This document shows, one piece after another, positions 8,678-62,002 of a stretch of 64,000 bases of DNA. The notes under the pieces are model-generated. The model was not told the origin of the DNA. It did no database searches and saw only the letters and a program-made list of their open reading frames with translations. A program made the translations under genes and the position numbers. Location: NCBI GenBank assembly GCA_943736015.1, contig OX031066.1, positions 12,156,245 through 12,220,244 of the forward strand. The letters run 5' to 3'. Each line of letters begins with the position of its first letter. The stretch's first letter is position 1. Source of the DNA: Tridacna crocea (Eukaryota; Mollusca; Bivalvia; Cardiida; Cardiidae).

Positions 8678-8906
8678 TTAACCCTTTACTCCATAGATAC
8701 TCATTTCTACGCAACGCTTGTAGGAGCCTTTGGAAAACACTGTGGCAAAAGGTGAAATTACTCGTGACGAGCAATTTCACCTTTTGTCACAATGTTTTCT
8801 ATCCTATCAAAAGGTGTCATATACACATAAGAAACGGCTTCATCCTAGTTGTTATTTAGGGTCAATTACAGATACCATAGAAATGCCCTATGGGGTAAAG
8901 GGTTAA
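8678..8906 (+). mobile_element. T2 hairpin MITE, full length
   Basis: TTAACCCTTTACTCC ... GGGGTAAAGGGTTAA. Hairpin core aaattactcgtgacgagcaa. Arms differ from T1 but the architecture is the same. Confidence 0.85.
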
Positions 8907-9870: not shown

Positions 9871-10532
9871 GCTTTACTCCATAGATACTCATTTCTACGC
9901 ATTGCTTGTAGGAGCCTTTGGAAAACATTGTGGCAAAAGGTGAAATTGCTCGTGATGAGCAATTTCACTTTTTGTCACAATGTTTTCTGTGCTATCAAAA
10001 GGTGTCATATATATGTCGTAGTCCAAACTGGAATCCAGGCAGATCCGGAATCTGCCTAGACCAAACTGGAATTTGTCTATAACAAATCAGGATACCAGTT
10101 TAGCTTTGCAGCTCTACAATCTGCCTAAACCAAATTTTATAGGGCGTCTACATATGAATCATCTTACTTTTATACGTAAACTCAAAAATAAAAGAAGTTT
10201 TAGTCAGAAATTCAGAGTAAATATAAATTTTGAATGTTTTGTTCTAATAAAAAAGGTGGAAAAAATAGCGATTGTGGAAAAAAATCATATAAAATGCTTT
10301 GAATGAAAATACCTCTCAATTGTAAACATAATTAAATCAATATATTTAAATGAAATATTAGAAAACGATGCATTTTGGTCTACACAAAATTTGAATTCTA
10401 ATTTGGTCTAGGCAGATTCCGGATCTGCCTAGATTCCAATCTGGCCTACGACATATACATAAAAAACAGCTTCATCCTTGCTGTTATTTAGGATCAATTA
10501 GAGATTCCAAAGAATTTCCTTAAAAGGGTTAA
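9871..10532 (+). mobile_element. T2 hairpin MITE interrupted by an R element
   Basis: T2 sequence runs to ggtgtcatata (~10012) and resumes at tacataaaaaacagc (~10456), ending GGGTTAA. Confidence 0.8.
10013..10455. mobile_element. R-family element, ~443 bp, nested in T2
   Basis: Inverted ends of about 50 bp: tatgtcgtagtccaaactgg and the complement of ctggcctacgacata, continuing through aggcagatccggaatctgcc, which is itself a palindrome. The interior is AT-rich. The duplicated target is short and AT-rich (TA, perhaps TATA). The frame at 10073-10306 is a byproduct. Confidence 0.75.
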
Positions 10533-12136: not shown

Positions 12137-13910
12137 CTATGAAGTCCAAGGCAAACCCCCCTTGGGAATCATGTCTAATAAATATTGCCTTTGTAGGTCA
12201 GAGGCGCGGGCTGCAAACGGCAACTGATATGGAAATGGAGCTCTTGGATTGAACCCTTGCATGCCCAGGGGCTGGCCCATACGCAGGGCAGCAGCCTGAT
12301 GGGCTTGCAACAAGTTCTGGTGCTGTCTTATAGTCTCTGCCATAGACTCTTTGTAAGCTTGAGTTGCATTTCTTGATGCAGTTACGGGGGAGTCCCTTGG
12401 GGATTCCCTGTCCCTGGATTCTGATTTCTCCTTCATACTACTTGAAGACGAAGAACTAGACTTAGGTTCTTGGGACTGCATTCTCTCAATCTCTTGCTCC
12501 TGTTGCAGAGCTTTCACAAAAGCACTTTTCAACCTGTTAGTGTGTTCCTGTTTTAATGCCTTCTTTTGATTGGTAGTTACACATTGCTCACATATTACAT
12601 TTTTAGATCCAGGCTTTTCGCGTTTCCAGACGGGTGTGAAGTCTGTGCCACACTGAACACATGTGAAAGGATTACATACCATTTTTTCATCCGGATTTTT
12701 ACGTCCTTTTGAAATCAGATTTACATCAATTATGAAATTTACAGCCTCCTCTAATCCTAGGAGATAAACAAAATCTGGACTAGTTAAGTTTGGAATGAAA
12801 TTCATCTCTGGCGGGGGAGGTTTAGGAGGTGGAATCTGAAGAAGTGTTTTCTCTAGCTGTTTCCTCAGAGCCAGTTTAGCTGCAGCTTGTCGTTGTGCTG
12901 GAGTTTCTTCAGGTGCTCTATTCTGAGCCTGTTGCATTTGTCTTAGGGCCTCATTCTGGGACTGAGAGCCCCTGTAATTAGCAACATTATTACTTGAAGA
13001 TCGATTATTTGGCATTTGTTGTTGCTGCTGTTGTTGTTGCAACATTTTCATCTGATTTTGTAAAATTTGTCTTTGATCCACACGAGGGGCCATCACAAGA
13101 GGAGGAGGTCCTTGTGATTTGTTTCCATTCTGTGACGGCTGACTACCGGGTCTAGTTAACTGAGGAGGCTGACTATGGGCAGGCTTTGCTGGCTGCTGTG
13201 GAACTTGATTGCCTCCCCTCACCAGAGGTGGGGGTTGTGACTGATGTTGGTTGGACTGTTGGGGCTTACCAGGCATGTTGTTCTGCATATGATGTGACAT
13301 CTGGCTTACCCGCAATTTTTTTAAGAGCACCAACTTTGCCTCTTCATTTCTGAGTTCAGCTTGCAACTTTTTTATCATTTTCTGCCTGATTTTGATTTCA
13401 TCCATGTGTATTTTCTTCTGACCATTTTGCCGCAACCCAAGTTCATCTATGTCTGACTCATCGGATAACATCACAAGATCTTGTGCAGGTGTTGAAGATT
13501 TTGATGACTTAGTGCTTAAATCCATAGGCACATCTAGATTCATATTTTCTTTCTCACTATCCTCTGAATGCACAGATCCCTCGTCACTTTTGATATTTCT
13601 GTCTTCTCTCTTAACACCAAGATCAACAGGTTGATCAGAACTGTTACTAACAGTAGACTCACCCTCCTTATCTTTATCATTATCAAAAGTATCATCATCA
13701 ACTTCCATTTTCTCCACATCATAACTTTTCTCCGCCTTAATGTCTGTTATGTGACTTGAGTTTTGATTTTTGTCTTCTCCACTAAATGAGGAACCATGAG
13801 TTTCAGTTGTATTGCTCTTCTTGTCGTCAAGCTCTTTCTTTACATCAGGTGAGTGTTTGGCATCACTTTCATCTACCTTTAAATCTTCTGTCTCATTCAC
13901 TTTCTTTGAC
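12137..13910 (-). CDS. GATAD2: GATAD2 coding exon 3 (most of the protein)
   Basis: A 1774-nt terminal coding exon. The acceptor cccaaaatag|GTCAAAG fixes its start at 13910. An apparent start at 13900 is a GTG inside the exon, not an initiator. It contains the PxDL motifs, CR1 coiled coil, Gln run, GATA finger and C-terminus up to the stop at 12139-12137. Confidence 0.92.
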
Positions 13911-15563
13911 CTATTTTGGGAATATGTTGGGTATAAAATAGATGATCCTTAAACCCTTTACCAAACAATTTCTCATTTTTACGACCCTGAGATGGATGCA
14001 TTTTGAAAACATCTTGGGAAAAGGAGAAAATGCTGATAACTAGCATTTTCTCCTTTTCCCACAATGTTTTCTATCCTGCTGGAAACAAATTTCAAAAGCC
14101 CTATAGCAGCAAAAATATCATTCAAACCATACCATTTAAGTGTATGAAAAACATTGTGGAGATGACAATCTGTTACAGTGTGGTCAGTCCAGACAGAAAA
14201 AATGCCGGAGACTAATACTGAGACTGACCGTAACATGTCAGATTGCCATCTTCACGATAATTTCCATACTTTTCAATAGGTCAATTCAAACTGAAATACA
14301 ATTAAGATTTTTTTGAGGGTTGAGATTGTAAGCACTGTTTTAGGAATTGTATGATCCCTTAACTTTAATAAAATGCTGATATTATCACTATACTGAAATG
14401 ACAAGTGTAACAGGTGGTGAAAAAATATCGCGGCTCAACCAGGATTCGAACCCAGGGCCTCGGGAATACCGTTCCTGCACTCTAACCAACTGAGCTACCG
14501 AACCACCTGTCGATACTGCCGCACGATATATCACCAAATACCTGTACTACATTATACCTTTACATCTATCTATGGGATAGACCAGTATACTACACAAGCA
14601 TAATTACCGTTTCTCAGGTTGCCCCTCTTCTTCCTTAGCATCTTCCTCCACGTAAGGTCTTTTTCTAGCAGCGATGTCACTTCCTTCCTTATCAATCCTA
14701 TCAAAAAAGATAACTAAATCATTTTGACCAGTTCTTAATGCTCTAAACTGCTGCAAAAAACCTTCTACAAGGCAAAATCACAGTTGCTGAATACCACCTA
14801 TAGAATTATTCAAATTAGAAATTGTTTAAATCTCAGAACAATAAATACCGTACATGGAATTGACATTTTTAAGTTTGTGGAAAAAACAGTTTAAAATTAT
14901 TTTAATGCCTTACCAATAAAACCCAAGTGTCAACGACCCTGAGGGAGAAGCCTTTGCGAACGAAGAAAAAGGAGAAAATGTAGTTCCTAGCATTTTCTCT
15001 TTTTTCGAAATGTATTATACTCTTTTGCCGACAAACTCCATCATTTGAACCATTTATGTTTGTTATCCACAAATGCTTTCAAATTGAGTAAGTCTGTTGT
15101 ATTTTCATTTGGAAAAGGGTTAACTTTTTCCATGCTATAAACAACAAAAGAAGCTTTTGTACATGTAGATAGTGTAGACCGAGATCTGACGGGGAATAAG
15201 CTGCACTCTGATCTTTGATCTGTAACAATCACTGCTTTATTTGAGATTACCAATGAGTCATCTTTTGATCTAGCAGAAGAAATAGATTTGTAGCCACAGA
15301 GAAAATGCACTTCATTTTCTACTTTTTCCAACTATGCATATTACCCTATCCCTAACCTGCAACTTTGTATCTATTTACATTTTGCAATAGACGGCGGATC
15401 TCTGTTTTTTTTTTTTTTTTTAATTTGTAGTTATCTAGTTAACCATTTGTTTGGGCCACGTTCGAACCAAACGTTTTTATAAAAAAAAAACATACCTCAC
15501 AGCTGATTTTTCCTCCCCACTAACTGTACCACTGTCTTCTTCTGTTATCTCTTTTGACGCCAT
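12137..15563 (-). CDS. GATAD2: Transcriptional repressor p66 (GATAD2), complete, three coding exons
   Basis: p66 proteins are subunits of the NuRD chromatin-remodelling and deacetylase complex. They bridge MBD2/MBD3 to CHD4 in the nucleus. The spliced protein (join of 15563-15496, 14697-14608 and 13910-12137) is 643 aa; human GATAD2A and GATAD2B are 633 and 593. In order I see: an acidic, Ser-rich N-terminus; two PxDL motifs (PVDLG ~147, PMDLS ~181); a SUMO-interaction-like DLVMLSDESD (~197-206); the CR1 coiled coil (~220-256, with EEAKLVLLKKLR) that binds MBD2/3 in this family; a Gln/Pro-rich linker with a Gln run (~344-351); the CR2 GATA zinc finger with Cys470, 473, 493 and 496; an eight-Ser run (~537); and the conserved C-terminal YLLDMIP. 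The start is MASKEITEEDS. A pyrimidine-rich tract plus CAG ends 3 nt before the ATG, so a 5'UTR exon probably lies further upstream. Everything after residue 53 sits in one exon, fewer introns than I recall for vertebrate orthologues. Confidence 0.9.
13951..14096 (+). mobile_element. T1, right part lost; in GATAD2 intron 2
   Basis: aaaccctttaccaaacaatt, short arm, hairpin gctgataactagc, then non-T sequence. Confidence 0.65.
14437..14512 (-). repeat. tRNA-derived SINE head in GATAD2 intron 2
   Basis: The minus strand has a clear A box (tagctcagttggttagagt) and B box (gggttcgaatcctgg), but the acceptor-stem halves ggtggtt and ttgagcc do not pair. It is a tRNA-derived repeat or pseudogene. Confidence 0.6.
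14608..14697 (-). CDS. GATAD2: GATAD2 coding exon 2
   Basis: A 90-nt exon with acceptor ttttttgatag|GATTG and donor AAACG|gtaatt. It enters and leaves in phase 2, joining exon 1 (AG|G, Arg) and exon 3 (CG|G, Arg) without a stop. It encodes a basic then acidic stretch with AARKRPYVEEDAKEEE, similar in character to the N-terminus of vertebrate p66. Confidence 0.8.
14902..15123 (+). mobile_element. T1, diverged; in GATAD2 intron 1
   Basis: TTAATGCCTTACC ... GGAAAAGGGTTAA, with a weakened hairpin (aatgtagttcctagcattt). Confidence 0.72.
15496..15563 (-). CDS. GATAD2: GATAD2 coding exon 1
   Basis: Encodes residues 1-22 plus two bases of codon 23. The ATG is at 15563-15561. The donor reads GTGAG|gtatgt at 15496/15495. 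A likely acceptor (tcttcttttcag) at 15568-15567 suggests the exon begins at 15566 and that an untranslated exon precedes it. Confidence 0.8.
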
Positions 15564-23663: not shown

Positions 23664-23892
23664 TTAACCCTTTACTCCATAGATACTCATTTCTACACAT
23701 TGCTTGTCGGAGCCTTTGGAAAACATTGTGGCTAAAGGTGAAATTGCTCGTGACGAGCAATTTCACCTTTTGCAACAATGTTTTCTACACTATCTAAAGG
23801 TGTCATATACACATAAGAAACGGCTTCATCCTTGGTGTTATTTAGGGTCATTTAGAGATACCATAGAAATGCTTTATGGTGTAAAAGGTTAA
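23664..23892 (+). mobile_element. T2 hairpin MITE, full length
   Basis: TTAACCCTTTACTCC ... GGTGTAAAAGGTTAA; core ctcgtgacgag. Confidence 0.85.
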
Positions 23893-24608: not shown

Positions 24609-27600
24609 GTAGGTCTTTCACAAAAACCGTTGAAATATCAATGTATGGGTTCTCACCATAGAAATAAAAATCTTTTTTTAGTTATTTAGCAGGTTAAGAG
24701 TTAAACATTAATAAAACGATTTGCATGGTACTGTGCATCTCGAAGATGCATTCCCTTTTGCAAGGCATTGCTCAGCCATTTACCTTAATGCCGATTTCTA
24801 CATTTATTATAACCATTATCAGAGCTCTGAAAAGGTAAGGAGTGATGGTATTCTAAATCCTTCATTTCTTTTTCAAACCCTATGTTGTGGGTACTCATTA
24901 GAATCGTCTCGATGAGACGATTCTAATGAGTACCCATAACATAGGGTTTAAGGAAGAATTATTAATATTTTCAACTTTGAAATCAAAATCACTGCCTCCA
25001 TCTGGAGCATTATCTGACAGATAAGGAGTGATGGTATTCTAAATCCTTTATTTCTTTTTCAAACCCTATGTTGTGGGTACTCATTAGAATCCTCTCGATG
25101 AGACGATTCTAATGAGTACCCATAACATAGGGTTTAGAGAAGAATTATTATTATTTTCAACTTTGAAATCAAAATCACCCCCTCTATTTGGAGCTCTGCA
25201 ATATGATTTCAGCAAACGATCCCTACAATGCAGCCTTTACATTCAGCACCTTTAATGTGTGGCCTATACCAGCGGTAATACCAGGAGAGTTACATTTCTC
25301 CGCGGCCCTTACCGTCAACAGACGGCTCCACAATCTCTATATTGACGAAGATGTCAATCACAGCATGTTTGGAGACATTCTTCAGTTGCCTTGCCTTGGT
25401 GTGGGGATCGGAACATGGTAAAATTCATTTGATTGTCTGACTTGGCGTTTTTTTGGATCGTTTTCAGCATTATTTCGTTTTTGTTATGGGGACCAGGAAT
25501 GCTTATGACCTAAAGCCAAGAAGCCTTTCTGCAGTAATAGCGTCTCTAGCCGGCATCAGATTCAAGAATATCTGGATTGCAAATTCAAGGCTTCAACCAT
25601 TTTTCAAGGCAGTAAACTACACATTACCCAGAAAATAGCCAAAGGGTTATGCCCTGGCCTACAAGTGCTCAATAAATACAGTTCGAGTTCCATATTCTGG
25701 GACTAACGATCTGACTGAAACCATCAGATAGCACTTGGCCTTTTATATGGGTATTGATCTAGCACTGTGATGCATTAAATCAAGCACGCTATCATAAATT
25801 ATGATTGTGATTCCATAAAGGCATCATGGGTCTGTATTCACAAACAATTCTAAAGAAAGTTTTGTCAATTTCTCCAGGTTTTTTCCAAACGTGAAAGTAA
25901 CACACCTTACGATTGGCCAAACCCAATTTGGCTTAACCCTTTCCCAAACGACAAATTTTAGACTCTTCCAAACTGAAAGAGTTTGCAGACGACAATATTA
26001 ACTTTCATAACAATGGCGGAAAATTATCCGAAGGGGCAGAAAACATTGTGGGAAAAGGAGAAATTGCTCGTTACGAGCAATTTCTCCTTTTCCCACAGTG
26101 TTTTCAAAAGACTTGTACTGCATACACGTAAAAACAAGGGCTTGTTTGGGAAAGGGTTAACCACTTGGTTTAACCGATCAGAAGTTGTGTTACTTTTAAA
26201 TTTGGAAGTTCTTGTAGAATAAGACAAATAATGTTCTTAAGAATGGTTGGTGAATACATACACTAGTCTAATAATCGACTGGATCTAGAAGTCGGCTGGT
26301 CCTTTGACATGCAAAAAATTGACAAATAGTAAAAAGTATCGACGGTTGTCAGCCTGTGCTGACACGCGCCGATACGTTTTACACAGGCACTATGCCTCCC
26401 CACCTCCGAACTACAGAGCATTTCCTCATTTATATATCATTTATATAAAGGTTTCAGAGCCCTAAAATTAGAGAAAAATGAAATAGTGATCATGTTCTTT
26501 TGCTCAGAAAGTGTAACAGTATTTTTCTTTTGGGCAGCAATAACATCGACTGTTGTCGATACCAGGAACTCAACATACCACAACTTTGGGAAAGGTTTAT
26601 GTATTATATCCTTGGCAATGAAACTGTTTGCCCTGTAGAATCGAAGTCCGTCCTTATACAAGATGAGATGGTATATTTCCCAGCTATACCAAAACCTTTA
26701 AGAACCTTAGCTAAGGTAGGTCATAGTTCATGGTAAACATGCCTGTCCTCGGTTCCTGTAACATGGATTTTTTTTACTGTATACGTTATTGAACTCCGCA
26801 AATGTAATTACAGCTACATAATACAATTCAAAATTCACCTTCTAATTATCGACGTTATGAATGACTCAGGATTAAATAATATTTGGTGTAAGTAATGTCA
26901 TGAACGCATGATAGAAGTTAAAATCATTATGCTATGCCCCCAACCCTTCCTCCATCTCTCTGTTTCTCCTGTCTTACTTTTCGTGTTGACTTAAACTGCA
27001 CATTTAAGTTTCTATATCGCAATTTTTCCCCAATATTTCGATTTTTTTCCTTGACCTAAAGGAGAAACATATATCGTCTATATGGCCCATTGAAAGATGG
27101 AAGTAAAGTTATTTCAGTTGTCTTTTGAACATTAACTTTATTGAATGATGCTTACAGAAAAGGTTTTGTATCCTAAAGCGCTTTTCACCAACGAAGTTGA
27201 GCATGTGTTCGCTGTAGATCAAGATAGGATTATTTTCATAAAGGCGCTGCAAGCATTAAATTTTGTTTTTAGTCTTTCATTGCATGATACCATGTTTTTG
27301 GCTTCCCGAAGAAAAAGACAATCCTAGTAGAAACATTAATAATATGGGTCATATTGTATTTATCGTTCCAAATGCTCTCAACTTGAACAAGTGTAAGATA
27401 TTGTTTAATACAGAGTTAAATCGAGTTATAATCTTGTATATTGTGTTGTTTTTTCAGAACAATTACACGGTCAGACTCCATTTTAAGGATGACTTGTCCA
27501 GACAGAAGCAAATAGGATGTCTAGAATTTGACTTTGAATTTATTGTGCAACCACAGCTCCCCGTAACTGCTATTGTAGGACGGCGAGACCTAGATGAGCA

Positions 27601-39200: not shown

Positions 39201-42200
39201 AGTCAGCCAACTTTCAGGGCTAGTGATGTGTCATATAAGACAGTCGAATCTTCGAAGAATATGGCATGCGCAGACAACGCAAACAACCAAACAAACTCGA
39301 GTCCAAGTTCCTTTTTGAAAATACATTTTGAGAAGGATGATTTGATGGTGATGATATTTTCTCTCATTTAATTGTAGACTTCCATCTTGGTAAGATTTGT
39401 GAATTGCCAAACTTTTCTTCTGATTGTATGAGGAATAGGGGAAATGCTGTATGCTAGTATATTCTGCTTTTCCCACAGAGTTTTTAGAAGCCTTCTTCCA
39501 GAGTGGTTCAAATACTGGATTTTAACACATAATGCCAACTTTTGACACTCCTGGAAAAGAAGCCTTTTGAAAACTTTGTGGTAAAAGAAGAAAATGCTGG
39601 TAACCAGCATTTTCTCCTTTTCACACAATGTTTCCTACTCTGTCATGAATAATTACACCATTTGAGCCACACTGAAATTGTCGTCTGCAAATGCTTTCAA
39701 TTTGGACAAGGCTTAAATTTTGCCGTCTGGTAAAGGGTTAATATTATGTAGTAAATGTTTTATATGGCTTGTTAAAAAAAAAGGATAAGCTGTTGATCTT
39801 ATTTATTTCAGATTTGGGATAATATTGAATTTCATCTAAACGGGTTAAATGACCTTAAGATTAAAGCCTTTAAGGCTACCAGTTAAAAACTTATGTTTGA
39901 GTGTAATTTAACATAACAATATGTAAGAAAGCAGCAATTAGGATTACATCTACTTGAAACAGTTTCCTGTTACTAAACACTTTTCTCTGTACCTTTCACC
40001 TCATAGCACATTAATTTTTCACTATCTACGAGGAATGTTGTGATTAACAAAGTTGACCATTTTTTTGAAAACTGGACAGATGAAGATGTTGAAATATTAT
40101 CTGCTAGGATGCTCATCGCAAAATAAGTTGCTCCTGACTGTGTATGGAATGCAACACACAAAAAGGTACATTAGGACATTTGTGTAAAGTGTCATCCCGG
40201 ATTAGCCTGCGCAGTCCGGGATGACACTTTACGACTACATTAGATTTTGTGCTACAGTAGACATGTGCAAAACAGAAAATTGCATTGAATTGGAAAGTAT
40301 CGTCTCGGTTTAGCCTGCGCGGACTTTACGCAAATGTCCGGATGTCCTTTTTCGCGTATTGCAGACCATATGGTGTCAATAAAGATTAGACTAAACACCT
40401 TTCATATTCTGAATGTTTATACATGTATACTCTTCTAATATCTTGTAAAGCACTCTGACAAATTATGCCTGGAAATTGTATTACATTTTGAAATTTTTTG
40501 ACTCAAAAAATGAAATATGTTTTGGAAAGCATAGAAAACATTGTGGGAAAAGCAGAAAATGCTGCATACCAGCATTTTCTCCTTTTCTTACGGGGTCTTC
40601 AGAAGACTTCTGTCACAGGGTCATGAAAACCAGGGATTGTTTGGTAAAGGGTAGATAAAGAATATATCATACTTGTATTGACTAATGCATTATCTCTGAA
40701 CAATGTACATGCATAGCTTTGGGTATTTTTTTTTAAGTGCTTTGAAGATCACATGATCATGTTGCAGTCATCAGTCTAATGTTCCGTATTAAATGGCAGT
40801 CCTGGACCTTGAGCTTTTTGATATGCAAATGAGATAAACAAGTTCAAAGTAATGTTGGACTCATACAAAGACGTAAAGTTGAGGTTGAAAGAGTAATTTT
40901 GAAACATTTTATTTCCCACCCAATTAGAGGTCATTTTCACGAGCCAAGATCACGATCACTACATGGATCTTACCCTGGCGGATGGAGCCAGATTTTGAGA
41001 TTTCCGCGATACGCCCCCTATTGGATGCTGCTTATTATCTCCCTTTACATCAATGATTATATTTCCTATAGCCAATGAAAAATCGTTTTACAGACCACAT
41101 ACAAATACAATAATTTAACATGAAGCAATAACCACAAACATACCCGGTACTTCGACTTTCCATAGTCAGGTGCTGGGATATACCCTAAAACCTCTGATAA
41201 TTGATTGGTCGCATTGAAACTTTATGTAAATATTGTTCATCTATGTTTTTTTCAGTAATAAATCATAATAGATCCTGCACACATCCATGGAGGTATTCAT
41301 GTTTACCTTCCATTTTTATCCGAAAGGTCGCACCCTTGTTTTTTTGTCAAAGATGAAATGCTACGAGCGATTTGATTAGTGCAGTTAGAGCTAACTGCAA
41401 CCAGTGAAAATGCAAATGTCAGAATCAAGCTTGATCCGCCAAGGGTAGAGTAGCGTATTGGATCATCATCCTTGGCTTGCGAAGATGATTAGAGGTGAAC
41501 TGGTTTGGAACCCAGAGGTAGCCTTGTGTATCGGTGCTTTACAAAGGACTATAGGGGTCCATTGTTTGACTCATCTCATCCATAGACTATAATAATATTA
41601 TAATATATAGTATGGATAGCCAGCATTTTCTCCTTTTTCCACAATGCTTCCTTACCCTAACTAATACAAAAATCATTATTTGAGGTACTTTTGTCATTTG
41701 CAAATGCTTTTGATTTGGTCCAGTCCAAAACATTGCATGGTAAAAGGTACCCTGGAAAGGGGCTTACAAAAACATTGTGGGAAGGAAGCATTATCTGCAA
41801 ATCTGATAGTAGCATCACTTGTGCTAAAATCAGTTAGTAATCTGCAAATACATTCAATTTTCAATCTTTATCATTTGGGACAGTGTTAAGTGTTTACTGT
41901 ACTGCCTCAGAGGACCCAAAAATAACTCAGAGTGGGTCTATATGCTCATTCCCAGTGGCCTTGACATAATAAGAACTTGCTTGTGAAAATAGGCAAGAAA
42001 TAAGTTGCATGAATATTTTATGACCTTGGAGATTAGATGGTAATAGGGGGTTGTCAAATATTCCGAGTACTGTTAGATGAGAATCTATGGCACAGATGCG
42101 AACTTGACAACTTGTTACAGTACAGTGATGAAAGAGGAAAATATATGGTGGATTTTGGCAATGTTTTTAACTCTTTATTCCACAGATATTCATTTCTACG

Positions 42201-45200
42201 CATTGCTTGTAGGAGCCTTTGGAAAGCATTGTGGCAAAAGGTGAAATTGCTCGTAATGAGCAATTTCACCTTTTGTCACAAAGTTTTCTATGCTATCAAA
42301 ATGTGTCATATACACATAAGAAACAGCTTCATCCTTGCTGTTTTTTAGCGTCAATTAGAGATACTATAGAAATGCCTTATGGGGTAAAGGGTTAACTCTC
42401 TACCAGTTAACAAGATTTTAGGCTTGTTCAAATTGAAAGCATTCACATATGACAAAATTAACCCTTTACCACACAATCCCTACTTTTGACGACCCTTAGA
42501 AAGAAGCCTTTAGAAAACATTGTGAGAAAAGGAGAAAATGCTGGTAAGCAGCATTTTCTCCTTTTCCCACAATGTTTTCTACCCTTCTCAAAACAGATCT
42601 CAAATTTTCAGTCACTTTTATTTTGTCGTCTGCAAATGCTCTCGATTTGGACAAATCTGAAACTCTGTTGTTTGGTAATGAGTTAAGGTGACTGAAAATG
42701 CAAAATTTCTTTTGGGAAAGGTAGAAAACATAGTGGGAAAAGGAGAAAATGCTGGTTACCAGCATTTTCTCCATTGCCCACTATGTTTTCAAGAGGCCTT
42801 TCTCTCAGTGTCATTAAAACTCGGGATTGTGTGGTAAAGGCTTAACTCTTCACCACACAATCCCGACTTTTAACGACCCTGAGCAAGAAGCTTTTTGAAA
42901 ACACTGTGGGAAAAGGAGAAAATGCTGGTAACCAGCATTTTCTCCTTTTCCCACCGTGTTTTCTACCCTTTGCAAACCAAATTTTAATTTTTCAGTCACC
43001 TTTATTTTGTTGTCTACAAATGCTTTCAACTTGGACCAGTCTAAAATTTTCTTGTGTGGTAAAGAGTTAAAAATGAACTTTGGATATTAATGCTTGACTT
43101 TTGGTTTCAAATCTGGGCTTGGCTGAAATTCTCATGAAATGTCATCTTATGGTCAATGAAAGTCACTGCATTAGTAGGAATTTTTTCTCATCCCAGAACC
43201 TAGATGACCTCAGTCTGAGAAAGAGATAGATCTTTGGCTTGGAAAGGTTGCTCTGCACAATTTCTATTGACCTTGAGAAAGGAGGCTTTTGAAAACATGG
43301 TGGGAAATGGAGAAAATGCTGGTTACCAGCATTTTCTCCTTTTCCCACAGTGTTTTTTGCCTTTCAAAGACAAATCCCATCATTGGTGCTTTGTCTCATA
43401 AATTCTGTCATCTGCAAATTTTTCAATTTGACCATGTTGTATTTTTTTTTTCTGTTAAATAATGTTTACTTATAAAACAGCACAATTTTAGATTTGTCCA
43501 AGTTAAAAGCATTTACAGACAAAAAGTTTGAAAATGGCTTAACCCATTACCACACAATCCCTACTTTTGACATCCCTGAGAAAGAAGCCTTTACAAAACC
43601 TTGTGGTCACCAGCATTTTCTCCTTTTCCCACAAGGTTTTCTACCATTAACAAAACAAATATCAAATTTTCAGTCACTTTTATTTTGTCGTCTGCAAATG
43701 TTTTCAATTTTGACAAGCCTAAAATATTGTCGTATGGTAATGAGTTAAATAATAGTGGGAAATCAGGAAAATACTGGTTACCAGCATCTTCTTCTCCCAC
43801 CTTGTTTTCAAAAGCCATCTTCCACAGATATTTTAAAACTCAGGCAGGATTTTGTGATATAGGGTTGAGAAACTTCAGATGGTCCATCCTATCTTGGTGT
43901 CTGCCAGCTGTAAAAGCCAAATGCACCTAGGACATAGAAAGGGTTTAGGATGACAGAACTCATTTTCTCAACAGATGACTGTTGACACAATTGCCAACTA
44001 TCATCCTCATGTCCTGTGGGAAAAACCTTGAATAAACAGTATGACAAATGGAGGGATCCCTTGGTTTTTCACAATGGCTTCAACTTATTACCAAATTACC
44101 AGACTCTTTCCAAATTCCCAGAACACTTTACCAAACTATCCTAACTTTTAATGACCCTGTGAAAGAAAGCTTTTGAAAACATTGTAGGAAAAGGAGAAAA
44201 TGCTGGACACAAGCATTTTCTCCTTTTCCCACAATGTTTTCTACCCATCCCAAATCAAATTTCGATTTTGGAGTCACATTATTTCAGTCTGTCATCTGCA
44301 AATGCTTTCAATTTGGACTAGTCCAACATTTTGTCGTTTGGTAAAGAGTTAAATATGCTCCATAAGCATTAACTCTTTACCAAACAATCCTGACTTTTAA
44401 TGACCCTGAGAAAGAAAGCTTTTGAAAACATTGTAGAAAAAGGAGAAAATGCTGGTTACAACTTACAAGCATTTTCTCCTTTTCCCACAATGTTTTCTAC
44501 CCATCCCAAATCAAATTTCGATTTTCGAGTCATATTATTTTAGTCTGTGGTCTGCAAATGCTTTGAATTTGGACTAGTCCAACATTTTGTTGTTTGGTAA
44601 AGAGTTAAATATGCTCCATAAGCATTAACTCTTTACCAAACAATCCTGACTTTTAATGACCCTGAGAAAGAAAGCTTTTGAAAACATTGTAGGAAAAGGA
44701 GAAAATGCTGGTTACAAGAATTTTCTCCTTTTCTCATAATGCTTTCTACCCATCCCAAATCAAATTTCGATTTTCGAGTCATTACTTTAGTCTGTCGTCT
44801 GCAAATGCTTTGAATTTGGACTAGTCCAACATTTTGTTGTTTGGTAAAGAGTTAAATATGCTCCATAAGCATTAACTCTTTACCAAACAATCCTGACTTT
44901 TAACGACCCTGAGAAAGAAAGCTTTTGAAAACATTGTAGAAAAAGGAGAAAATGGTGGTAACCAGCATTTTCTCCTTTTCCTTAAAGTTTTCTACCCTTC
45001 CCAAATCAAATTTCAATTCTGGATTTACATTATTTTAGTCTGTGGTCTGCAAATGCTTTCGATTTGGACTAGTCTGAAATTTTGTTGTTTGGTAAAGAGT
45101 TTACAGACAACAAAAGATATGTCGCTAAATTGATAAGAGCTGTCTTTGAAAATCTTTGAAACATAATAGGAAACAAAGAAAATGTTGGGTTAACAGCATA

Positions 45201-48200
45201 ATATACTTTTCCCACAATGTAATATTTTTTTGAAACTTTTGTTCCTCAGCAAACAATAAATCTGGAGATTATTTGGTAACAGGTTATGGTAACTCTCTAT
45301 GTGTCGAAAGATTTTAAAGATACACTTTATTATTATCTTTTTTTCACAATAACTTTTTGGACCCTGAGTTTCCAAAGGGAAGTGAGATCAAGCCATCTGG
45401 TCATTAACCCTTTCCCAAACAATCCCTGGTTTTTACGGGTCTTGAATAGTAGCCTTTTGAAAACATTGTGGGAAAAGGAGAAAATGCTGGTAACCAGCAT
45501 TTTCTCCTTTTCCCACAATGTTTTCTACCCTATCATAGACAGAAATCATCTTTTCAGCAATAGTTGAATTGTCGTCTGCAAATGATTTCAATTTGGTATA
45601 GTCCAAAAGTTTGTCGTTTAGGAAAGGGTTAAAGATACACTTTATTATTATCTTTTTTTCACAATAACTTTTTGGACCCTGAGTTTCCAAAGGGAAGTGA
45701 GATCAAGCCATCTGGTCATTGATCATGAATAGCACACTGTCTATGGCAGTATAAACCCTGAGATACAGAGGGACATTTTTAGTTCCTTGACATACAGGGT
45801 GACCCAGTAGAATATTTAGAATAATTTTGCTTTATTTTTGTGGGGGTAATTAGAAGGTCATGAGTTCTGATTTTCATTTGGTCACCTGTACTACTCATGC
45901 CTGAATGAACCCTGAGATACACAAGGACAGTTTTAGGTCCTTGGCACACTGTCCATGGCATTATGTACCCTGAGATAAACAAGGATATTTTGAATGCATT
46001 GACGGACATACAGGGTGACGCAGTAGAATACAGTAATTAGAATAATTTTGCTTAATTTTTGTGGGAGTAATTAAGAAGTTTATAAGTTCTTATTTTTTAT
46101 TAGATCACCCTGTACTATGCATGGCTGCATGAACCGTGACATACATGAATACATTTTTAGGTCCTTGGCAAACTGTCCATGGCATTATGAACCCCGAGAT
46201 ACACAGGGTCATTTTTATTTCCTTGATATACATTGTATAGGATTACTCTGTAGAATAATGTGGATAATTTTGGTTTATTTTTGTGGGAGTTATTTAGAAG
46301 TTTACGAGGTCTGATTTTTATTTGTTCACCTGTACTTAACCCATGCTGAATGAGCCCTGAGATACACAAGGACATTTTTAGGTCTTTGGCACACTGTTCA
46401 TGGCATTATGAACCCAGGGACATAATTATGAAGTGCAGAATACCTAGTCTGGTCTTTGATTTTCATTTGTAAATGCATTCAGTTTGGTTGAGTCAAAATT
46501 TTAATTGTTTGGCCTTGAAGAGTTTACAGACTTGGATCAGATAAGTTTCAGTTATTTTGGAGATTAAGAGCTAAATTGATCGTCCAGGTTGTCATGATAA
46601 TATTGTGACCTGTATTATCATACTGAATCCTTTTTAACCCTTTACCACACAACAAAATTTTATACTGGACCAAATTGAAAGCATTTGCAGATGACAAAAT
46701 GAATGTGGCTGAAAAATTGAAATTTGTTCTGGGAAGGGTAGAAAACACTGTGGGAAAAGGAGAAAATGCTGGTTACCAGCATTTTCTCCTTTTCCCACAG
46801 TGTTTTCAAAAGACTTTTTTCTCAGGGGCGTCAAAAGTAGGGATTGTGTGGTAATGGGTTAAACTTGTAGATCAAGGTCTGCTGCAAGTACAGATGAAGA
46901 TTAGACTCAACAAAACATGAATTATGATACTTTATCTACACTCTCTGCTCTATGGAGACATTCCAAACAAAAGCAGACTGAAAACACTTGGTCCCCAAAG
47001 AAGGGTTGAAAAAACAGAACACCATATTTTTGATGCAGGAATGTATGTTATATAATTATATTGGACAAAAGAAAAGAAACAGCAACAACAAATGAAGGTT
47101 ATTGTCTGGATACCTGGTGAGGTTAGAGATTATTGGTCTATAAAAAATGCAATTTGTCTGTGTCAAGATTGAATGAATATTTCATAACCCTCTGGACTGC
47201 AGACTGAATGGTTAGGACAGTTTGTTAACCCTTTACCACATAGTCCTGACTTGTCAAGACCCTTAGCATAAAGACTTGTGAAAAAAGTTGTGGAGAAATA
47301 GAGAAAATGCTGGTAACTAAGCATTTTCTCCTTTTTCCCAATTTTTTTTCTTTCTTTTATACCTTTACCACACAATACCAACTTTGAGCAACGTTGAGGA
47401 GGTGGCTTTTTAGAACATTGTGGGAAAAGGAGAAAATGCTGGTTACCAGCATTATCTCCTTTTCCCAAAGTTTTCTACCCTATGAAAGGCAAAATTTATT
47501 TTGAGTAACTTCATTGTTGGCCACCAGGGTTAATCCCATCTTTTTAGCCACACATGTATCTCTTCCACAAAAGCTTTCAATTAAGACAATTCTAAAATTT
47601 ATTGTCAGTCTCAGTTAAACAAAGAGCAAAAGTCTCAGTTTAAGTAATAATACCCCCGTCACACCAAACTCATTCTCACTATGTTCCAAAAAGTTTTGCC
47701 GAACGGACTTTAACTGTATTCAGACAAGGTAGACGTATAAGTAGCCTGTTTCAATCTGTTTACTAACTTAGTGATTATTCTAGACCAGACAAAAGGGCAG
47801 GGAGGCAGGAAAAAGGGGCAGGGAGGCAGGAAAAAGGGACAGGGAGGAACATTGCCTTGTTGAATGACTTCTCATATCAGATAAAGGCAAATCAGTGTCC
47901 TTCACTCTTTTCGAAACAAGTTCTAACTATAACTTTGGATATGAATTGCATATTAAAGAAAAGAATAAGAAAAGATTCTTATCAACCCATAGACTCAAAG
48001 CAACACAATCTGACTCCACAGGTTTTGATTGCCATGTAATTTATGATCCCATGATGCACTGTCACACTTAGCTTTAATGTAGTAGACCCATAACACTTCT
48101 GGTGTAGCATGGAATAAAAGTTCTTGATAGCTGACAAATACAGATTTATTTATACAGATAAAATACTTATGCATATTTTTGACCCACTAGAAATGCCTTT

Positions 48201-51200
48201 GATGTCTCTTAAAAACAATTGTTGATACTTTTGTTAGTTTTCAGAAAAGGGAGGTAATTATTAATTTGCTTTGTAATGAGAACACAATGGTTTTGGATTT
48301 ATAAATAATAATTCTAGGAAGGAAAAAAAGGAAAAATTGGCTCGGTTAAAGTACTGCAATAATACTCATTTTAGCAAATTTTGTAGGATAATAATATTGT
48401 GGAAATAGCTGTTTTCTATTACAGGTCCACTACCTAACTTCTTGTCAGATAACAAAAAATGTCCAGAGTAATTATAAAAAAAAAAAACCCTTCTTCTCAG
48501 CTGTTTTACGAAATGACAATAATTTTGATTAAAAAAAAAACAAAGAAAATTTAATTATTACATAGAAAGAATTACAAAATGTGTAGGCAGGCCTACTAAT
48601 GGAGTAGTGTACTACTGCATAGCCATTCTATAAATAGACTGCTAAAAATAGAACACTGCAATGCAGATTTTTGCTTTAAAAAAATTGCCGATGCTTGAAT
48701 AGCAAACATCGAGTACTTTCAAGATAGTTGGCAACTTTGGTTTACCATCTATACTTGTAATTTATGCAAAAAAAAAAATACGAAATGATAATCTCCAGCT
48801 GCAATAAGAGTTAATTCAGCCTTATTTTAAAACTATTCAAGTATTGATAAATTTCACTGATTGTGTGGCGTCATTTACAGAAATTAGCAGATGTTAAAGT
48901 ACCTGTGGGGGAAAAAAGTCAGGGTTTCGAGGGATAAAGGGATTGTTTAGCAAGTTAATGACAGAGAAGGATTATAACACCCTGCTGTCCTGTCTTAACT
49001 GACGAAGTTGATAAAGGATAATTTGTGTCACCCTTAGTCTTAGATTGGCTGTATTTCATGAATATAGTCAGGTCGGAAGAAATTTATGGCGAACTTTTGT
49101 GACTGTGCAAGCTTTACGAGACGGAGCCAAGACACTGAAGGCGAGTTTTTTGCCCATGTAGCCCGGTGGTTTGTTCTGAAACCAAAACAATACACAAACA
49201 AGTTTTGTATGTATTTGATAAGGGCAACAGGGCGGGTTGTTCACAGATTCGAGGGCAGAAGGGCGGAGTGAAAAAGGGGCAGGGCGGCGCGCCCTGCTAT
49301 TCCGCTCTAGAATAAACTCTATAACTTAATGGACGGGTTAGGACAGGAAGGCGCTCCAGAACTTTGGGCCTGCTCAAAATTTCATGCTGTCCATCCCATC
49401 CTGTAATTAGACGGAGTGACACAACAAACTTCGAATGAGATGGACATACTACAAATGGAACTGCCGTGCTTCGGTTTTAATAAAGATGTGGGGCAGCCAG
49501 GCATCAATCGACACCGTGTTTGCATATTACAGGCGGAAAATTCACATCCCATCCGGACTGCAGCCAATTTTACGATTTTGTTGAGTGGGTAAGACTGTCT
49601 AGGAACAGGATTGGTGAGACGGGGGCTTCAGCAATTATCAGGCCAAAATTGCATATTCTGTCCAGACTGCAACCCATTATTATACGCCCGTCGAAGATGG
49701 GACGTATTATGGGATCACCCGTGGTGGCGGGCGGGTGGGCGGGTGGTGTCCAGTTCTTTGTCCGGGGCATATCTCCAAAACTATTCTAGCTAGGGTTATG
49801 AAATTTCATGAGTGGATAGATCTCATAGAGGGGGAGTGCAGTGTGCAGGAATCATAACTCTTGCTTGCTTAATTTCTGAGTTATTGCCCTTTGTTGTTTT
49901 TCATACTTGAATTTTGTCCAGGGCATATCTCAAAAACTATACTAGCTAGGATTATGAAATTTCATGGGTGGATAGATCTCATGGAGGGGGAGTGCAGTAC
50001 ACAGTAATCATAACTCTTGCTTGCTTAATTTTTGAGTCATTGCCCTTTGTTGTTTTTCATACTTGAATTTTGTCTGGAGCATATCTCCAAAACTATACTA
50101 GCAAGGGTTATGAAATTTCATGGGTGGATAGATCTCATGGAGGGGGAGTGCAGTACACAGGAATCATAACTCTTGCTTGCTTAATTTTTGAGTTATTGCC
50201 CTTTGTTGTTTTTCATACTTGAATTTTGTCCGGAGCATATCTCCAAAACTATACTAGCAAGGGTTATGAAATTTCATGGGTGGATAGATCTCATGGAGGG
50301 GGAGTGCAGTGTACAGGAATCATAACTGTTGCTTGTTTAATTTTTGAGTTATTGCCCTTTGTTGCTTTTCATACTTGAATTTTGTCCGGGGCATATCTCC
50401 AAAACTATACTAGCTAGGGTTATGAAATTTCATGGGTGGATAGATCTCATGGAGGGGGAGTCCAGTGCACAGGAATCATAACTTGCTTGCTTAATTTTTG
50501 AGTTATTGCCCTTTGTTGTTTTTCATACTTGAATTTTGTCCGGAGCATATCTCCAAAACTATATTAGCTAGGGTTATGAAATTTCATGGGTGGATAGATC
50601 TCATCAGGAATCATAACTCTTGCTGGCTTAATTTTTGAGTTATTGCCCTTTGTTGTTTTTCATACTTGAATTTTGTCCGGGGCATATCTCAAAAAGTATT
50701 CTAGCAAGGATTATGAAATTTCATGGGTGGATAGATCTCATTAAGGGGGAGTGCAGTGCACAGGAATCATAACTCTTGCTTGCTTAATTTTCGAGTTAGT
50801 GCCCTTTGTTGTTTTTCATACTTGAATTTTGTCAGGTGAATATTTCCAAAATTATACTAGCTAGGGTTATGAAATTTCATGGGTGGATAGATCTCACCAA
50901 AGGGGAGTGCAGTGCTTAGGAATCATAACTCTTGCTTGGTTAATTTTTGAGTTATTGCCCTTTGTTGTTTTTCATACTTGAATTTTGTCCGGAGCATATC
51001 TCCAAAACTATACTAGCTAGGGTTATGAAATTTCATGGGTGGATAGTTCTCACTGAATGGGAGTGCAGTGCACAGGAATCATAACTCTTGCTCGCTTTAT
51101 TTTTTCGTTTGTCGTTTTTCATACTTGAATTTTGTCCGGAGCATGCCCCAGCTTTACAACTTGGGGTAAGACGTGCGTATCTTGCGACAGTTTGCCGCTC

Positions 51201-54200
51201 TTGTTTGATCATGTCAGGATGGGGAAAGACATTCTAAGATCTAGTTTGGTGTGACTGGGGCTTTAACCATATTCACTGCTGTTTTTCCCTTTTCCTCTGC
51301 AGCCTAACCCAGCCCATAACAGTCTGATATTGGTTTGCATTGTGGGTGAAAGCGACCCAGTTTGATTCTATGAGAAGAGACAAAAAGCACCAATAATTTG
51401 TTTGATTTTCCTGTAAAGTGGCTGTAATGACCAGTAAATCATTTCTTGATGAGTTTTTGATGTCCTTTTGTCTGGATAAACTACTAATCTTCTTCTTCAA
51501 GATTGTTATATAATGTTCAAGCACGTAGCTAGACAGAAACCATGTAGCCCTGGCATAGCTCTATACCATACAGTCCCATTATAAGCCTTTTGAAAACATT
51601 GTGAGAAAAAAGAAAATACTCTTAACCTGTATTTTCTTCTTTTTTCTTAATTGTCACTCCCCAATCAAAGACAAGCTCAATTGTTTCAGCTACATTTAAG
51701 TTGCTGCCTGCAGATGCTTTCAATTTTGACAAGTCTGCATTTTTGTTGTCTCAAGTTAGCCTTTTGAAGAAAAAAAGGGTGAACAAAACACACATATATA
51801 TGTGGATGCATGGCCAAAGCCTTGGACTTAATCTTAGCTTCATTCATGGCTATGCCCAATATGTATCTCGATGATAATGCGACACAAATCTCTTTACCAA
51901 ACCACAAAAATTTGGACCGGTCCAAACTGAAAGCATTTGCAGACAACAAAATTAATGTGAATCAAAAATTGAATTTTGAATTGGAAAGGCTAGAAAACAT
52001 TGTGGGAAAAGGAGAAAATGCTGTTTACCAGCATTTTCTCCTTTTCCCACAATATTTTCAAAAGCTTTCTGTCTCAGGGTTGTTAAATGTCTAGATTGTG
52101 TGGTAAAGAGTTGAAGAAACTTTAAAAAGGCAATGCTACTGATGTCAGTGGCTTTGGAAAGAAAGTTGTGTTAGTACTGGTGTGAGAAAGCCAGGAAACA
52201 CATGTGCGTCACCAACGGCCATGATATGACCTCATCTGTTAAAGTGGGGTTAAAAACAAATACAACCAACCAACCAACTGGTATGTACTTTCTCAAAACA
52301 TAATTATTGTCATGATGTTGATACTCACAGGTGTAGAATGCCATGCTCCGAAAATATGGGGCTTAATGCATTCTGCATATAGTATCAACCCGACCTAAGT
52401 CAAAACTTTTTGCATTTCGTAGATTTTCTGTGTGTTCATGCACAATTCTACCTCATGATTCAGTTGGTTTTAGACAAAATTGATTCTATAGGTCCATATA
52501 ATGTGATGACTTACGTGGTATAATGCATCAAGCAGATGCATTGAACTCCCTTTTGTCTGATTGAGATATATAGGATTGGAGATATATAGGATTTGACGTG
52601 ATTGGGCTTTTGAGATAAGATTTTAAGACTCGCTTAACCCATTACCACATGCAAAATTTAAGACCTATCCAAATTGAAAACATTTGCAGATGGCAATTTC
52701 AAAGAGGCTCAAATGGTGCGATCTTGCTGTGATAGGGTAGAAAACTTTGTGGAAAAAGGAGAAAATGCTGTTTACCAGCATTTTCTCCTTTTTCCATAAT
52801 GTTTTCAAAACGGTTCTTCCTCAGTCGTCATTGTGTGGTAAAGGGTTAAGACTTTATTACACAAGCAAATAATAGACTTTTCTAAATTGAAAGCATTTGC
52901 AGATGATAAAATAAATGGGAATCGAAAATTGAAAATTGGTTTTGAAAGGGTAAAAACATTGTGAAAAAAGGAGAAAATGTTGGTTACCACAATGTTTTCA
53001 AAGGCTTGCTTTCTCGGGGGTGTCAAAAGTCGGGATTGTGTAGTAAAGAGTTAATAACATCTTTCTTTGACGATTTTGATAAGATTTTATCTCAAATGTG
53101 TATAAGACAAGAAAATGCATAATGGGTATATTACTCTGAAAACAAGGGAGGTTATGTGATAAATTAGTATGACTTGTAATCTGCCAGGGTCTGTATTCAC
53201 CAACCATTCTTAAGAACATTCTTTGTCTTACTCTTCAAGATTTCCTGACTGTGAAAATAACAGAAATTCTGATTTCTTAAACCAAATGGTTTAGCCAATC
53301 AGAAGTTCTGTACACGTTACTTTGACAAAATTTTGAAGAATAAGACTAAGAATATTCTTAAGAATGGTTGGTGAATACACATCCAGACTACATAAACAGA
53401 TTAGGTCTTTACTGGTAGACAAAATTATAGGCTGATGATTGATTGAATAAAGTTAAGCGCTGTGCTTCAATTTTATTTCAGTTATATTGCGGGGACCAGT
53501 GCACATATCCGTACTTTCCTGGAGTTTCTTTTGCCAGTACACCACAGGCCCATAGGAACCAATTTTGGAGGGGGGGGGGGGCAAAATCTTCATAATCGGC
53601 TGGTCCCGATTTGACATATATTGCATTTGGTTATGCACTGAGAAATAGCCCACCTACTAATACTAGGAACTGAAATAGAATGAAATTTGTTCAACAATGT
53701 GGCCGAAATATGAGATTTGGAGAAAAAATAAAGCCGAAAATCACACTGAATGAAATGTGACATCAGAAATTGCTTGGTGTCTGTCATCTAGATAACAAAA
53801 GTAGATGAAAAATTTGTTTGTTAAGAACTTTTTTAATACATTTGAAATTTTCTGTCAGCGGTATGGTCAATAAGCAATTCTGAAATATTGTTTCATCTTC
53901 TTTATATACGATGATTGTCCAAACACTGACAGTTATTTTATTGATGATCAAATTATTGGGGGGGGGGGGGGGAACCTGGGCCTCCCCCCCCCCCCCCCTC
54001 CCAAATGACCATTCTTGAAACATTGGTTAGCAGTGAGAGAAGAATGAATCCTGTAACAGCAACTATCATCAATCCTCTGAAAGAAATTTGCGGAGTCAGG
54101 AATTGAATCAGTGACCTCGTATTTCAAAAACTGTACTTTAGATTGATTAACTCATTACTGAACGACATTATTTTAGGTTTGTCTAAATCAAAAGCATTTG

Positions 54201-57200
54201 CAGACGACAAAATACATGTGAATCAAGCAACAAAAATTGATTTGGGAAGGGTAGAAAACATTGTGGGAAAAGGAGAAAATGCTGGTTACCAGCATTTTCT
54301 CCTTTTGCTACAAAGTTTTCTAATAGCCTCTTTCTCAGGGTCGTCAAAAGTAGGGATTGTGTGGTAATGGATTAAAAGATGACGGACTTTGTCTTCCATG
54401 CAGTGTAAAAAATTGTTGAAAATGAAGAAAAAGGTAGTCATTTTAGAAGAATCGTATAAATGATAAATACAGGTAGATGACATATTGTCAAACAAGCTGG
54501 TGCAAATTATTGTTACTCTTTATCTAAATGACAAAATAGACTTGGAAGCATACACAGACAACATATTAAAAGTGGCCTAAAAATTAATGGTGGTAATGGT
54601 CTTTGAAAGGTAAAGAAAACATAGTTGGAAAGGAGAGAGAGCAGAGCTCCAGATAAGAGGGAGTGATGACATTCTAAATCCGTTATTTCTCTTCCAAACC
54701 CTATGTTATGGGTACTCATTAGAATTGTCTCAATGAGATGATTCTCATGAATACCATAAAATAAGGTATGGAGAATAACTTTTATTTTCAATTTTGAAAT
54801 CAAAATGACTCCTTTTATCTGAAGCTCTGAGAGAGTATTTTATTTTCTTTCCTCTGATCATGATGTGATATTTGCCATGGTTGTTAATACATGGAATTGT
54901 TTAGCAAAGGTAAACCTTTCAGTAGACAATCCCGACCTACAGCAACCCTCAGTAAGAAGTCTTTTTTGGAATATGAGAAAATGCTGGTCACAGGCATTTT
55001 CTCTGTTTCTAACAACGTTTCCAACCCTATCAATGACAAATCCAAATACTCTAGTAGAATTTAAAATGTTGTCTTTAAATCCTTTGATTTGGACTTGTCT
55101 AAAATTTTGTCATTTGGTAAAGAGTTAATGCATGTAGCAACCTGGAAGTGGGTTGGAGCTGAACATTTTTATGTGACAATTATGGACATCTGTTGCTCAC
55201 ACCTGGCACTTGGCTTAATGTGTTATTAACCACAGACCTTGTGGCATGTTTTGACAAGTTTACTTAATGGTTGAATTGTGCTTAATGGCACTTTTAACAT
55301 TATATGTTATCATATCACAGGCCAGTGGCAGCTCTCTTATTAATTCTTCACTAAGCAGTCCCTGGTTTTAACCCATTACCACACAATCCCTACTTTTGAT
55401 GCCCCTGAGAAAGTAGCCTTTTGAAAACACTGTGGGAAAAGGAGAAAATGCTGGTAACCAGCATTTTCTCCTTTTCCCACAGTGTTTTCTACCCTTTCCA
55501 GAACAAATTTCTATTTTTCAGTCACCTTTATTTTGTCGTCTGCAAATGCTTTCAATTTGGACCAGTCCAAAATTGTCTCATGTGGTAATGAGTTAATGGT
55601 TGAATCGTGCTTAATGGCACTTTTAACATTATATGTTATCACATCACAGGCCAGTGGCAGCTCTCTTATTAATTCTTCACTAAGCAGTCCCTTAGGTTTT
55701 AAGGACCCTGAAAAGAGAGCCTATTGAAAACCTTGTAGTTAAAAAGGAGAAAATGCTGGTTACCAGCATTTTCTCCTTTTACCACAAAGTTTTCAACACT
55801 TTCACTGACAATTTGCATCCTTTCAGCTACAATTAATATGACCCCTGCAAATGCATTCAATTTGGATCAGTCTAAAATTTTGTGGTTTGATATAGAGTCA
55901 ATCAAATCTTTCATTTCATCAGCACATGGCAGGGGCTTTGAAGTGATACTCCTTAGAAAATAAACAATATAGGGTTGGTATAAGAACCAACCAGAGGCCT
56001 CAAACTTCACATAACCACACTCTTACACCCCACAGATATGTTGGTTGGTTGGTATTTTCGTTTATTTATCGTCACTACTGGTTGCCCATCTGAGCGACGC
56101 TTCCAGAAGAAGGTTAGTTATTACTGGGGATAGTGCAAGGATACAGGTCAAAACTACTGAGAGCTTCACCTGGTTCTTTAATGTGCTTGGCGAATAGCAC
56201 CGTCACACGGGACCTCGGTTTAATGTCTCATCTGAAAGACTATTAATGATTTTAGTTGGCAAGCTGGGGATACGAACTCATAACCTGTAGTGACCCGAAA
56301 CATTGTGTTGAAAAAGACTGCAATCCCCGGATATTGGGGGGGGGGGGGGGGGGGAGTGATGCATCATATAAGATAGGTTGAATCTTCGAAGTATATGACA
56401 TGCTCAGAGGACGACAGAATCTGTTCATTTCATTTTTTACCCAAAAATATTTATCAAGAGCAACTAAATAAGTTAAATTATCCCCTGCTTCTTGGAATAC
56501 TGGTTCTCCTCCCATATTACAAAACAAAATTATAAGCATGGAGACAAAGTGAGTCAAGGAATTGTGGGATATGTAGGACAAGAATGAAATGGTTGCAAAA
56601 CATGGTTTTCATGATAGAACAATCATGTTTTTCTCTTTTATCTGATGGTTATCTTAGGTGATAATCATCTCAAGGCCGTCTACTTCCCTGTCGTTTTACA
56701 TATATTTAAATACTTGTCCCTTTTTACATCCTTAACTGTTTACCAAACGACAAAAATTTAGACTAGTCCATATTGAAAGCACTTGCAGACGACAAAATAA
56801 ATGCAACTCCTAGATTGAAATTTATTTCTAGCAAGGTAGAAAACACTCTGGGAAAAGGAGAAAATGCTGTTAACCAGCATTTTCTCCTTTTCCTACAATG
56901 TTTTCAAAAGCCTTCTATATCGGGGTTGTAAAAACCAGGGATTGTTTGGTAAAGGGTTAAGAAAAAAAAAAAACGCCTTTGAAATCATTTTGAGAATAGG
57001 AACAAATTTAGTAGCTAACATTTTATTCTTGTTCCACAGTTGCCTTGACCCTTTCATAGATATTTGTACTTGTTTTAGCAATATTAGAGATTTTGTTCAC
57101 AAAAATCTTTAGCAAAGTGACATTTTAATAAAATATGGATACAAGCGTTCGCCATAGTGATACATGTATAACTGAAACATTATGTTGAACTGTATTAATC

Positions 57201-61774: not shown

Positions 61775-62002
61775 TTAACCCATTACCACACAATCCCTAC
61801 TTTTGACGCCCCTGAGAAAGAAGCCTTTTGAAAACACTGTAGGAAAAGGAGAAAATGCTGGTAACCAGCATTTTCTCCTTTTTCCACAGTGTTTTCTACC
61901 CTTCCCAGAACAACTTTAAATTTTTCAGTCGCCTTTATTTTGTCGTCTGCAATGCTTTCAATTTGGACCAGTCTAAAATTGTCTCATGTGGTAAAGAGTT
62001 AA
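61775..62002 (+). mobile_element. T1 hairpin MITE, full length
   Basis: TTAACCCATTACC ... GGTAAAGAGTTAA; close to the 55368 copy. Confidence 0.88.

Follow-up and report, generated by a model that had tools for sequence, protein, structure and literature searches.

TTAA-bounded duplications of flanking DNA around two copies of a miniature inverted-repeat element in Tridacna crocea

A 64,000-bp stretch of the Tridacna crocea genome (assembly GCA_943736015.1, contig OX031066.1, positions 12,156,245 to 12,220,244; hereafter the window) carries many copies of a short inverted-repeat element, designated E, which inserts at TTAA sites. At two loci, A and B, a single copy of E is enclosed by a direct repeat of the neighbouring DNA (x), so that the order is TTAA-x-TTAA-E-TTAA-x-TTAA. 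This arrangement suggests that the mobility or recombination of E occasionally duplicates the DNA next to it. The explanation tentatively favoured here for the two loci is hybrid element insertion, in which a nearby TTAA receives one end of an element from one chromatid and the other end from another. The components of the two loci are as follows (coordinates are those of the window).

45314-45317, no strand: TTAA at the left edge of locus A (from the alignment and the direct-repeat scan)
45318-45403, no strand: left x of locus A, 86 bp, identical to 45633-45718
45404-45632, plus strand: E of locus A, TTAA to TTAA (nhmmer, 216.7 bits, model positions 1-228)
45633-45718, no strand: right x of locus A, followed by TTGA at 45719-45722
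55264-55267, no strand: TTAA at the left edge of locus B (from the alignment)
55268-55367, no strand: left x of locus B, 100 bp, its final 28 bp (from 55340) corresponding to the left end of the diverged E at 55669
55368-55596, plus strand: E of locus B, TTAA to TTAA (nhmmer, 232.3 bits, model positions 1-228)
55597-55698, no strand: right x of locus B, 102 bp, ending at the TTAA at 55699
55669-55898, plus strand: diverged E with its left end inside the right x of locus B (nhmmer, 171.1 bits, model positions 1-226; 79% to the consensus)

At locus A the two 86-bp copies of x are identical, and both directly abut E. An initial annotation of this DNA had described that repeat, with TTAA on its left and TTGA on its right, as well as a repeat of approximately 100 bp at locus B between the TTAA sites at 55264 and 55699; alignment bore out both descriptions. 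The copies at B, which also abut E, differ by two substitutions and one 2-bp indel, and the TTAA sites bounding them are at 55264, 55368, 55593 and 55699. Three of the four outer edges at the two loci are thus TTAA and one, to the right of A, is TTGA, and the identity between the copies of x stops at these edges. The window contains 498 TTAA sites, so that an arbitrary edge would fall at one by chance in about 0.8% of cases (about 1 in 128). No further copy of either x was found in the window by blastn (E value of 0.1 or less). The possibility that locus A is bounded by a degenerate end of E was considered and rejected, the minus-strand match there lying at 45063-45286 and the TTAA at 45314.

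Each x at locus B includes three internal TTAA sites, one of them the left terminus of the diverged copy of E (55340 and 55669). The duplicated segment therefore consists of 72 bp of flanking DNA and the first 28-30 bp of that copy, and, as the left end of the diverged copy lies inside x, the E at 55368 sits at its internal TTAA. With respect to the match between the arms of the palindrome in each element, the E of locus A has a mismatch score of 1, the lowest value among 48 copies, and the elements of A and B are both among the five of the 48 with the lowest scores, a coincidence expected by chance in about 0.9% of cases (10/1128). These best preserved palindromes tie the duplications of x to young copies of E, although palindrome preservation is a rough clock, since the arms may correct each other.

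It was of interest to determine to which class of element E belongs. Iterated nhmmer searches of the window yielded 84 non-overlapping matches, totalling 15,507 bp, of which 44 are near full length. Alignment of 48 copies gave a 229-bp consensus, which begins TTAACCCTTTACCACACAATCCC, ends in a near-inverse of that sequence, and has a long palindrome at its centre. Folded as single-stranded DNA, the copy at 55368-55596 gave –55 kcal/mol, as against –19.0±3.5 kcal/mol for shuffled sequences (z=–10.4). Of 168 match ends, 115 fall within six model positions of a terminus, and 83 of those 115 have TTAA in the surrounding 8 bp. The left terminus of the consensus is CCCT and the right, inverted, is CTCT, and CCCT is found at both termini of single copies such as those at 45404 and 25934. 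The report on the coral CMITE elements of Acropora, in its account of classification, assigns a miniature inverted-repeat transposable element (MITE) to the piggyBac type by CC[C/T]T at both termini adjoining TTAA (PMC2872659). The TTAA target and the CCCT left terminus point to E being a non-autonomous TTAA MITE of piggyBac type, although the right end of the consensus is CTCT. No Pfam match to a transposase was obtained (E value of 0.001 or less) in the six of 26 listed open reading frames of the window that were scanned, and E had no match in the collections viral_contigs and genome_contigs.

Several further features of the family were observed. The copies at 8678-8905, 9872-10002, 23664-23818 and 42167-42394 form a related TTAA subfamily whose left ends resemble TTAACCCTTTACTCCATAGATAC; those at 8678 and 42167 are 90% alike. 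The E copy at 9095-9346 has a 17-bp tandem duplication inside one arm of its palindrome (9173-9208). Paired changes in the two arms (CACTGTG/CACAGTG in place of the consensus CATTGTG/CACAATG) are shared by the copies at 55368-55596, 61775-62001 and 46635-46862, and the 61775 copy has additional changes in a single arm; the arms of E may have been corrected against each other, or the paired changes may mark a subfamily. Finally, three copies at 42458-43069 (plus, minus, plus) are arranged end to end with a single TTAA common to neighbours, and a second pair with one common TTAA is found at 52635-53054. Existing TTAA ends of E seem to be reused as targets.

The architecture of loci A and B is very similar to a published one, that of CMITE-IN of Acropora (Wang et al. 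2010). CMITE-IN is described as a piggyBac-type TTAA MITE with a copy of a direct repeat on each side, the whole unit being bounded by TTAA (PMC2872659). That description is matched exactly by locus B, and by locus A with TTGA on one side. The direct repeats of the CMITE-IN prototype are 23 bp in the published description (PMC2872659), compared with 86-102 bp for x. The whole CMITE-IN unit is moreover dispersed, at approximately 70 copies in A. millepora by the authors' estimate (PMC2872659), unlike the units described here, each x of which matches only its own locus within the window. Matches between the window and the 60-bp core of CMITE were short and no better than chance (the best 13 bp, with an E value of 0.10).

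The frequency of such duplications was then determined by comparing the 500-bp flanks of each copy of E with one another. Outside a tandem array of E, discussed below, abutting repeats were found for two of the 84 matches, and for two of the 44 near-full-length copies; the generality that the initial annotation had raised as a possibility is rejected for this window. A direct-repeat scan of the window (ungapped, at least 25 bp, at least 85% identity, starts within 1200 bp, the repeats themselves not being E) likewise returned loci A and B only as direct repeats enclosing E. When 86-bp repeats were mutated by substitutions alone in a detection trial, the repeat was recovered in 30 of 30 runs as far as 25% divergence, and in 28 of 30 runs at 30%. 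Given this sensitivity, the structure is uncommon in the window, and the flank test should have caught cases of moderate age. A second test for abutting repeats (at least 25 bp, 85% identity, 8 bp of slack at each end), applied to all 84 matches, gave five positives: loci A and B, the two inner copies of the array, and 42684-42845. The last of these, in which an E on the minus strand is flanked by two plus-strand copies with 85% likeness, was not counted, such likeness being common among unrelated copies. Four weak, non-abutting matches of 15-43 bp from a masked version of the flank test (copies 672, 23664, 42842 and 56733) were also left uncounted. Among random intervals, abutting repeats were found in 64 of 4000 when arrays were included. 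Outside arrays, in a control whose excluded zone contained locus A, they were found in 14 of 6000, six of these at locus B and eight within copies of E (495-503 and 42611-42663).

Any mechanism proposed for loci A and B has to account for TTAA at each outer edge of x, which hybrid element insertion achieves in a single step. One product of this process can carry a copy of the flank on either side of one element. At each locus, a copy of E would initially have been present at one TTAA. A transposase complex would then have paired the left end of E on one chromatid with the right end of E on the sister or homologue, and the hybrid ends would have been joined to a neighbouring TTAA approximately 86-100 bp away. 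One product would be TTAA-x-TTAA-E-TTAA-x-TTAA, with a single E and x on both sides; in the reciprocal product x would be deleted. In P elements, ends drawn from copies on sister chromatids or homologues are described as taking part in one insertion, with rearrangement of the flanking DNA (PMC3744419, PMC2775673, in the portions dealing with this process). For a TTAA element we infer the same process from the structure of the loci, and give it somewhat less than an even chance at A and B. The initial annotation had suggested that the transposition reaction itself copies the segment between TTAA sites. Aberrant transposition is retained here as the favoured explanation, but the event is better put as the joining of element ends from two chromatids at nearby TTAA sites, for which nothing need be copied.

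The composition of the E at locus B bears on this proposal. According to a study of Galileo, in its discussion of such rearrangements, copies are expected to be identical after hybrid insertion and chimeric after ectopic recombination (PMC2775673). Compared over five blocks with its best relative, at 61775, the E of locus B matched at 48/50, 39/40, 47/50, 39/42 and 44/46 positions. It thus has no clear subfamily switch or chimerism, as hybrid element insertion predicts. In addition, the divergence between its two copies of x (two substitutions in approximately 100 bp) is within the private changes of the E itself (six in 228 in a three-way comparison). The matching of terminal inverted repeats was also tried as a test for chimerism and proved uninformative, with on average 4.3 mismatches within copies and 4.9 between copies over 14 positions.

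Several observations weigh against hybrid element insertion. In its two central blocks the E at B matches the copy at 46635 slightly better (40/40 and 49/50), and the chimerism test is a weak one, because two independent insertions from a single young subfamily would be hard to tell apart. At locus A that test fails, the best relative of its E among the aligned copies being only 80% identical. The structure is present at two loci only, and well preserved, similar copies of E also favour a crossover between two insertions. A limited literature search did not find hybrid element insertion described for piggyBac, and a publication in which both terms occur treats them separately in the passages considered.

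A crossover of that kind is a serious rival, although it is considered somewhat less likely. It would have occurred in trans, inside E, between a haplotype with E at one TTAA and a haplotype with a similar E at another. The exchange would join x-E to E-x, so that the TTAA edges would follow automatically. E is certainly dense, with its 84 matches in 64 kb, and of the 30 pairs of neighbouring matches that lie within 110 bp, 16 share an orientation (a count that includes overlapping matches and split fragments). Pairing through E would also be favoured, as E is longer than x, and the nearby array suggests that copies of E do recombine together. Such a crossover nevertheless requires two similar insertions in the same orientation within approximately 100 bp. 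As only five of the 48 copies belong to the best preserved class, a window of this size would, by a rough estimate, contain considerably fewer than one such pair. It further predicts a chimeric E unless the two copies were of a close subfamily, whereas the E at B has no clear subfamily switch. Recombination between adjacent insertions, which the initial annotation had offered as one origin for all of its loci, finds moderate support in a hybrid signature within the array, while A and B are explained at least as well by aberrant transposition.

The array consists of four copies of E and the three spacers (s) between them.

44122-45101, plus strand: array E-s-E-s-E-s-E, four copies of E and three 16-bp spacers
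44122-44351, plus strand: first E copy of the array (nhmmer, as for the following three)
44369-44607, plus strand: second E copy
44625-44854, plus strand: third E copy
44872-45101, plus strand: fourth E copy

The three spacers are identical, and each lies between TTAA sites, as had been described initially. The array, however, has a copy of E at either end, with degenerate TTAA sites on the outside, and no copy of the spacer was found outside the array on either side. The array was therefore rejected as a case of x-E-x, there being no spacer beyond the outer copies of E, and the claim that all three loci fit one structure was not confirmed. The idea that such a structure seeds MITE arrays finds no support here: neither locus A nor locus B became an array, and the sole array is without outer spacers.

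The two inner copies of the array resemble crossover hybrids of the outer two at 26 informative sites. They match the last copy at seven of nine sites 5′ of alignment column 106, and the first copy at 14 of 17 sites 3′ of it. A single breakpoint accounts for 21 of the 26 sites, equally well at column 26 and at column 106, so its location is ambiguous. For the split at column 106, which was picked after viewing the table, Fisher's test gave p=0.0085; a permutation test with a free breakpoint gave p=0.022, and does not tell gene conversion from crossover. Sites 36, 94, 191, 201 and 248 go against the column-106 split. When sites were polarized with an outgroup, five shared-derived sites united copies 1-3 in the 3′ part. 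No clear shared-derived support was obtained by this polarization for the 5′ part, where the shared-derived sites 36 and 248 oppose the grouping. Private changes in the outer copies account for part of the hybrid signal, those in the first copy contributing to the signal of the 5′ part. With moderate support, then, the array probably arose separately from A and B, by unequal crossover between two diverged copies of E at TTAA sites 20 bp apart. It is a readable case in its own right of a MITE array for which growth by unequal crossover, starting from a pair of neighbouring insertions, seems to be the origin. Acropora genomes are also described as containing tandem arrays of MITEs, with very similar sequence between the copies, and the authors of that report propose slippage as their origin (PMC2872659). 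Among the routes from transposon to satellite listed in the relevant section of a review are reinsertion at target-site duplications and unequal exchange (PMC12628747).

Considerably less probable is an order of events in which a tandem duplication, TTAA-x-TTAA-x-TTAA, came first and E was then inserted into the middle TTAA. A precedent is available in the coral prototype, described as two 23-bp direct repeats split by TTAA and ending in TTAA, with no MITE (PMC2872659), and in the passage on CMITE-IN the authors propose MITE insertion into such an existing repeat (PMC2872659). The prototype could, we suggest, equally be the remnant of a precise MITE excision. For A and B, moreover, two TTAA-bounded duplications would be needed by coincidence; empty TTAA-x-TTAA-x-TTAA structures (x of 14-400 bp, ungapped scan) were found only within a 156-bp satellite; and the middle TTAA at locus B is one of nine, giving it a chance of about 1/9.

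Slightly more improbable still is that former arrays (for example E-x-E-x-E) shed their outer copies by seamless piggyBac-type excision: the E of locus A does lie approximately 300 bp from the end of the array described above, and piggyBac transposases are stated usually to excise precisely (PMC2872659), but several steps would be required at each of two loci, and, such excision being traceless, the window offers no direct evidence either way.

Alternative transposition is also known to generate small tandem duplications in maize, by reversed-ends transposition of Ac and dhAT elements. Three such duplications are given in the published account of these events, with repeats of 116-118, 147-148 and 1257-1262 bp (PMC3744419). 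The duplicated segment there starts with the element (E-x-E-x), in contrast to the single E between two copies of x in T. crocea.

If hybrid element insertion by a transposase did produce loci A and B, they would document alternative transposition by a TTAA element in nature, with edges that lend themselves to automatic scoring wherever a genome has many MITEs of this kind. They would also supply small tandem duplications of DNA that is otherwise single-copy. More speculatively, a piggyBac-type transposase may act naturally on ends from two chromatids, a TTAA MITE thereby leaving short, TTAA-bounded duplications of single-copy flank at a few in every hundred of its copies. CMITE-IN of corals would then be the product of the same reaction turned mobile, and its prototype an excision product. 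This broader proposal is doubtful as it stands, though possible.

Other features of the window are as follows. A different inverted-repeat element is present at 24836-25194 as a tandem dimer with a 186-bp period; the edges of its repeat are not TTAA, and further copies are found near 71-263 and 54642-54829. The 156-bp satellite occupies 49757-51104 in approximately 8.8 copies and has seven TTAA sites at monomer-related spacing. The window is most likely animal DNA also by its gene content, as an open reading frame on the minus strand at 12137-13945 has P66_CC and GATA domains (Pfam), and presumably encodes a GATAD2-like protein.

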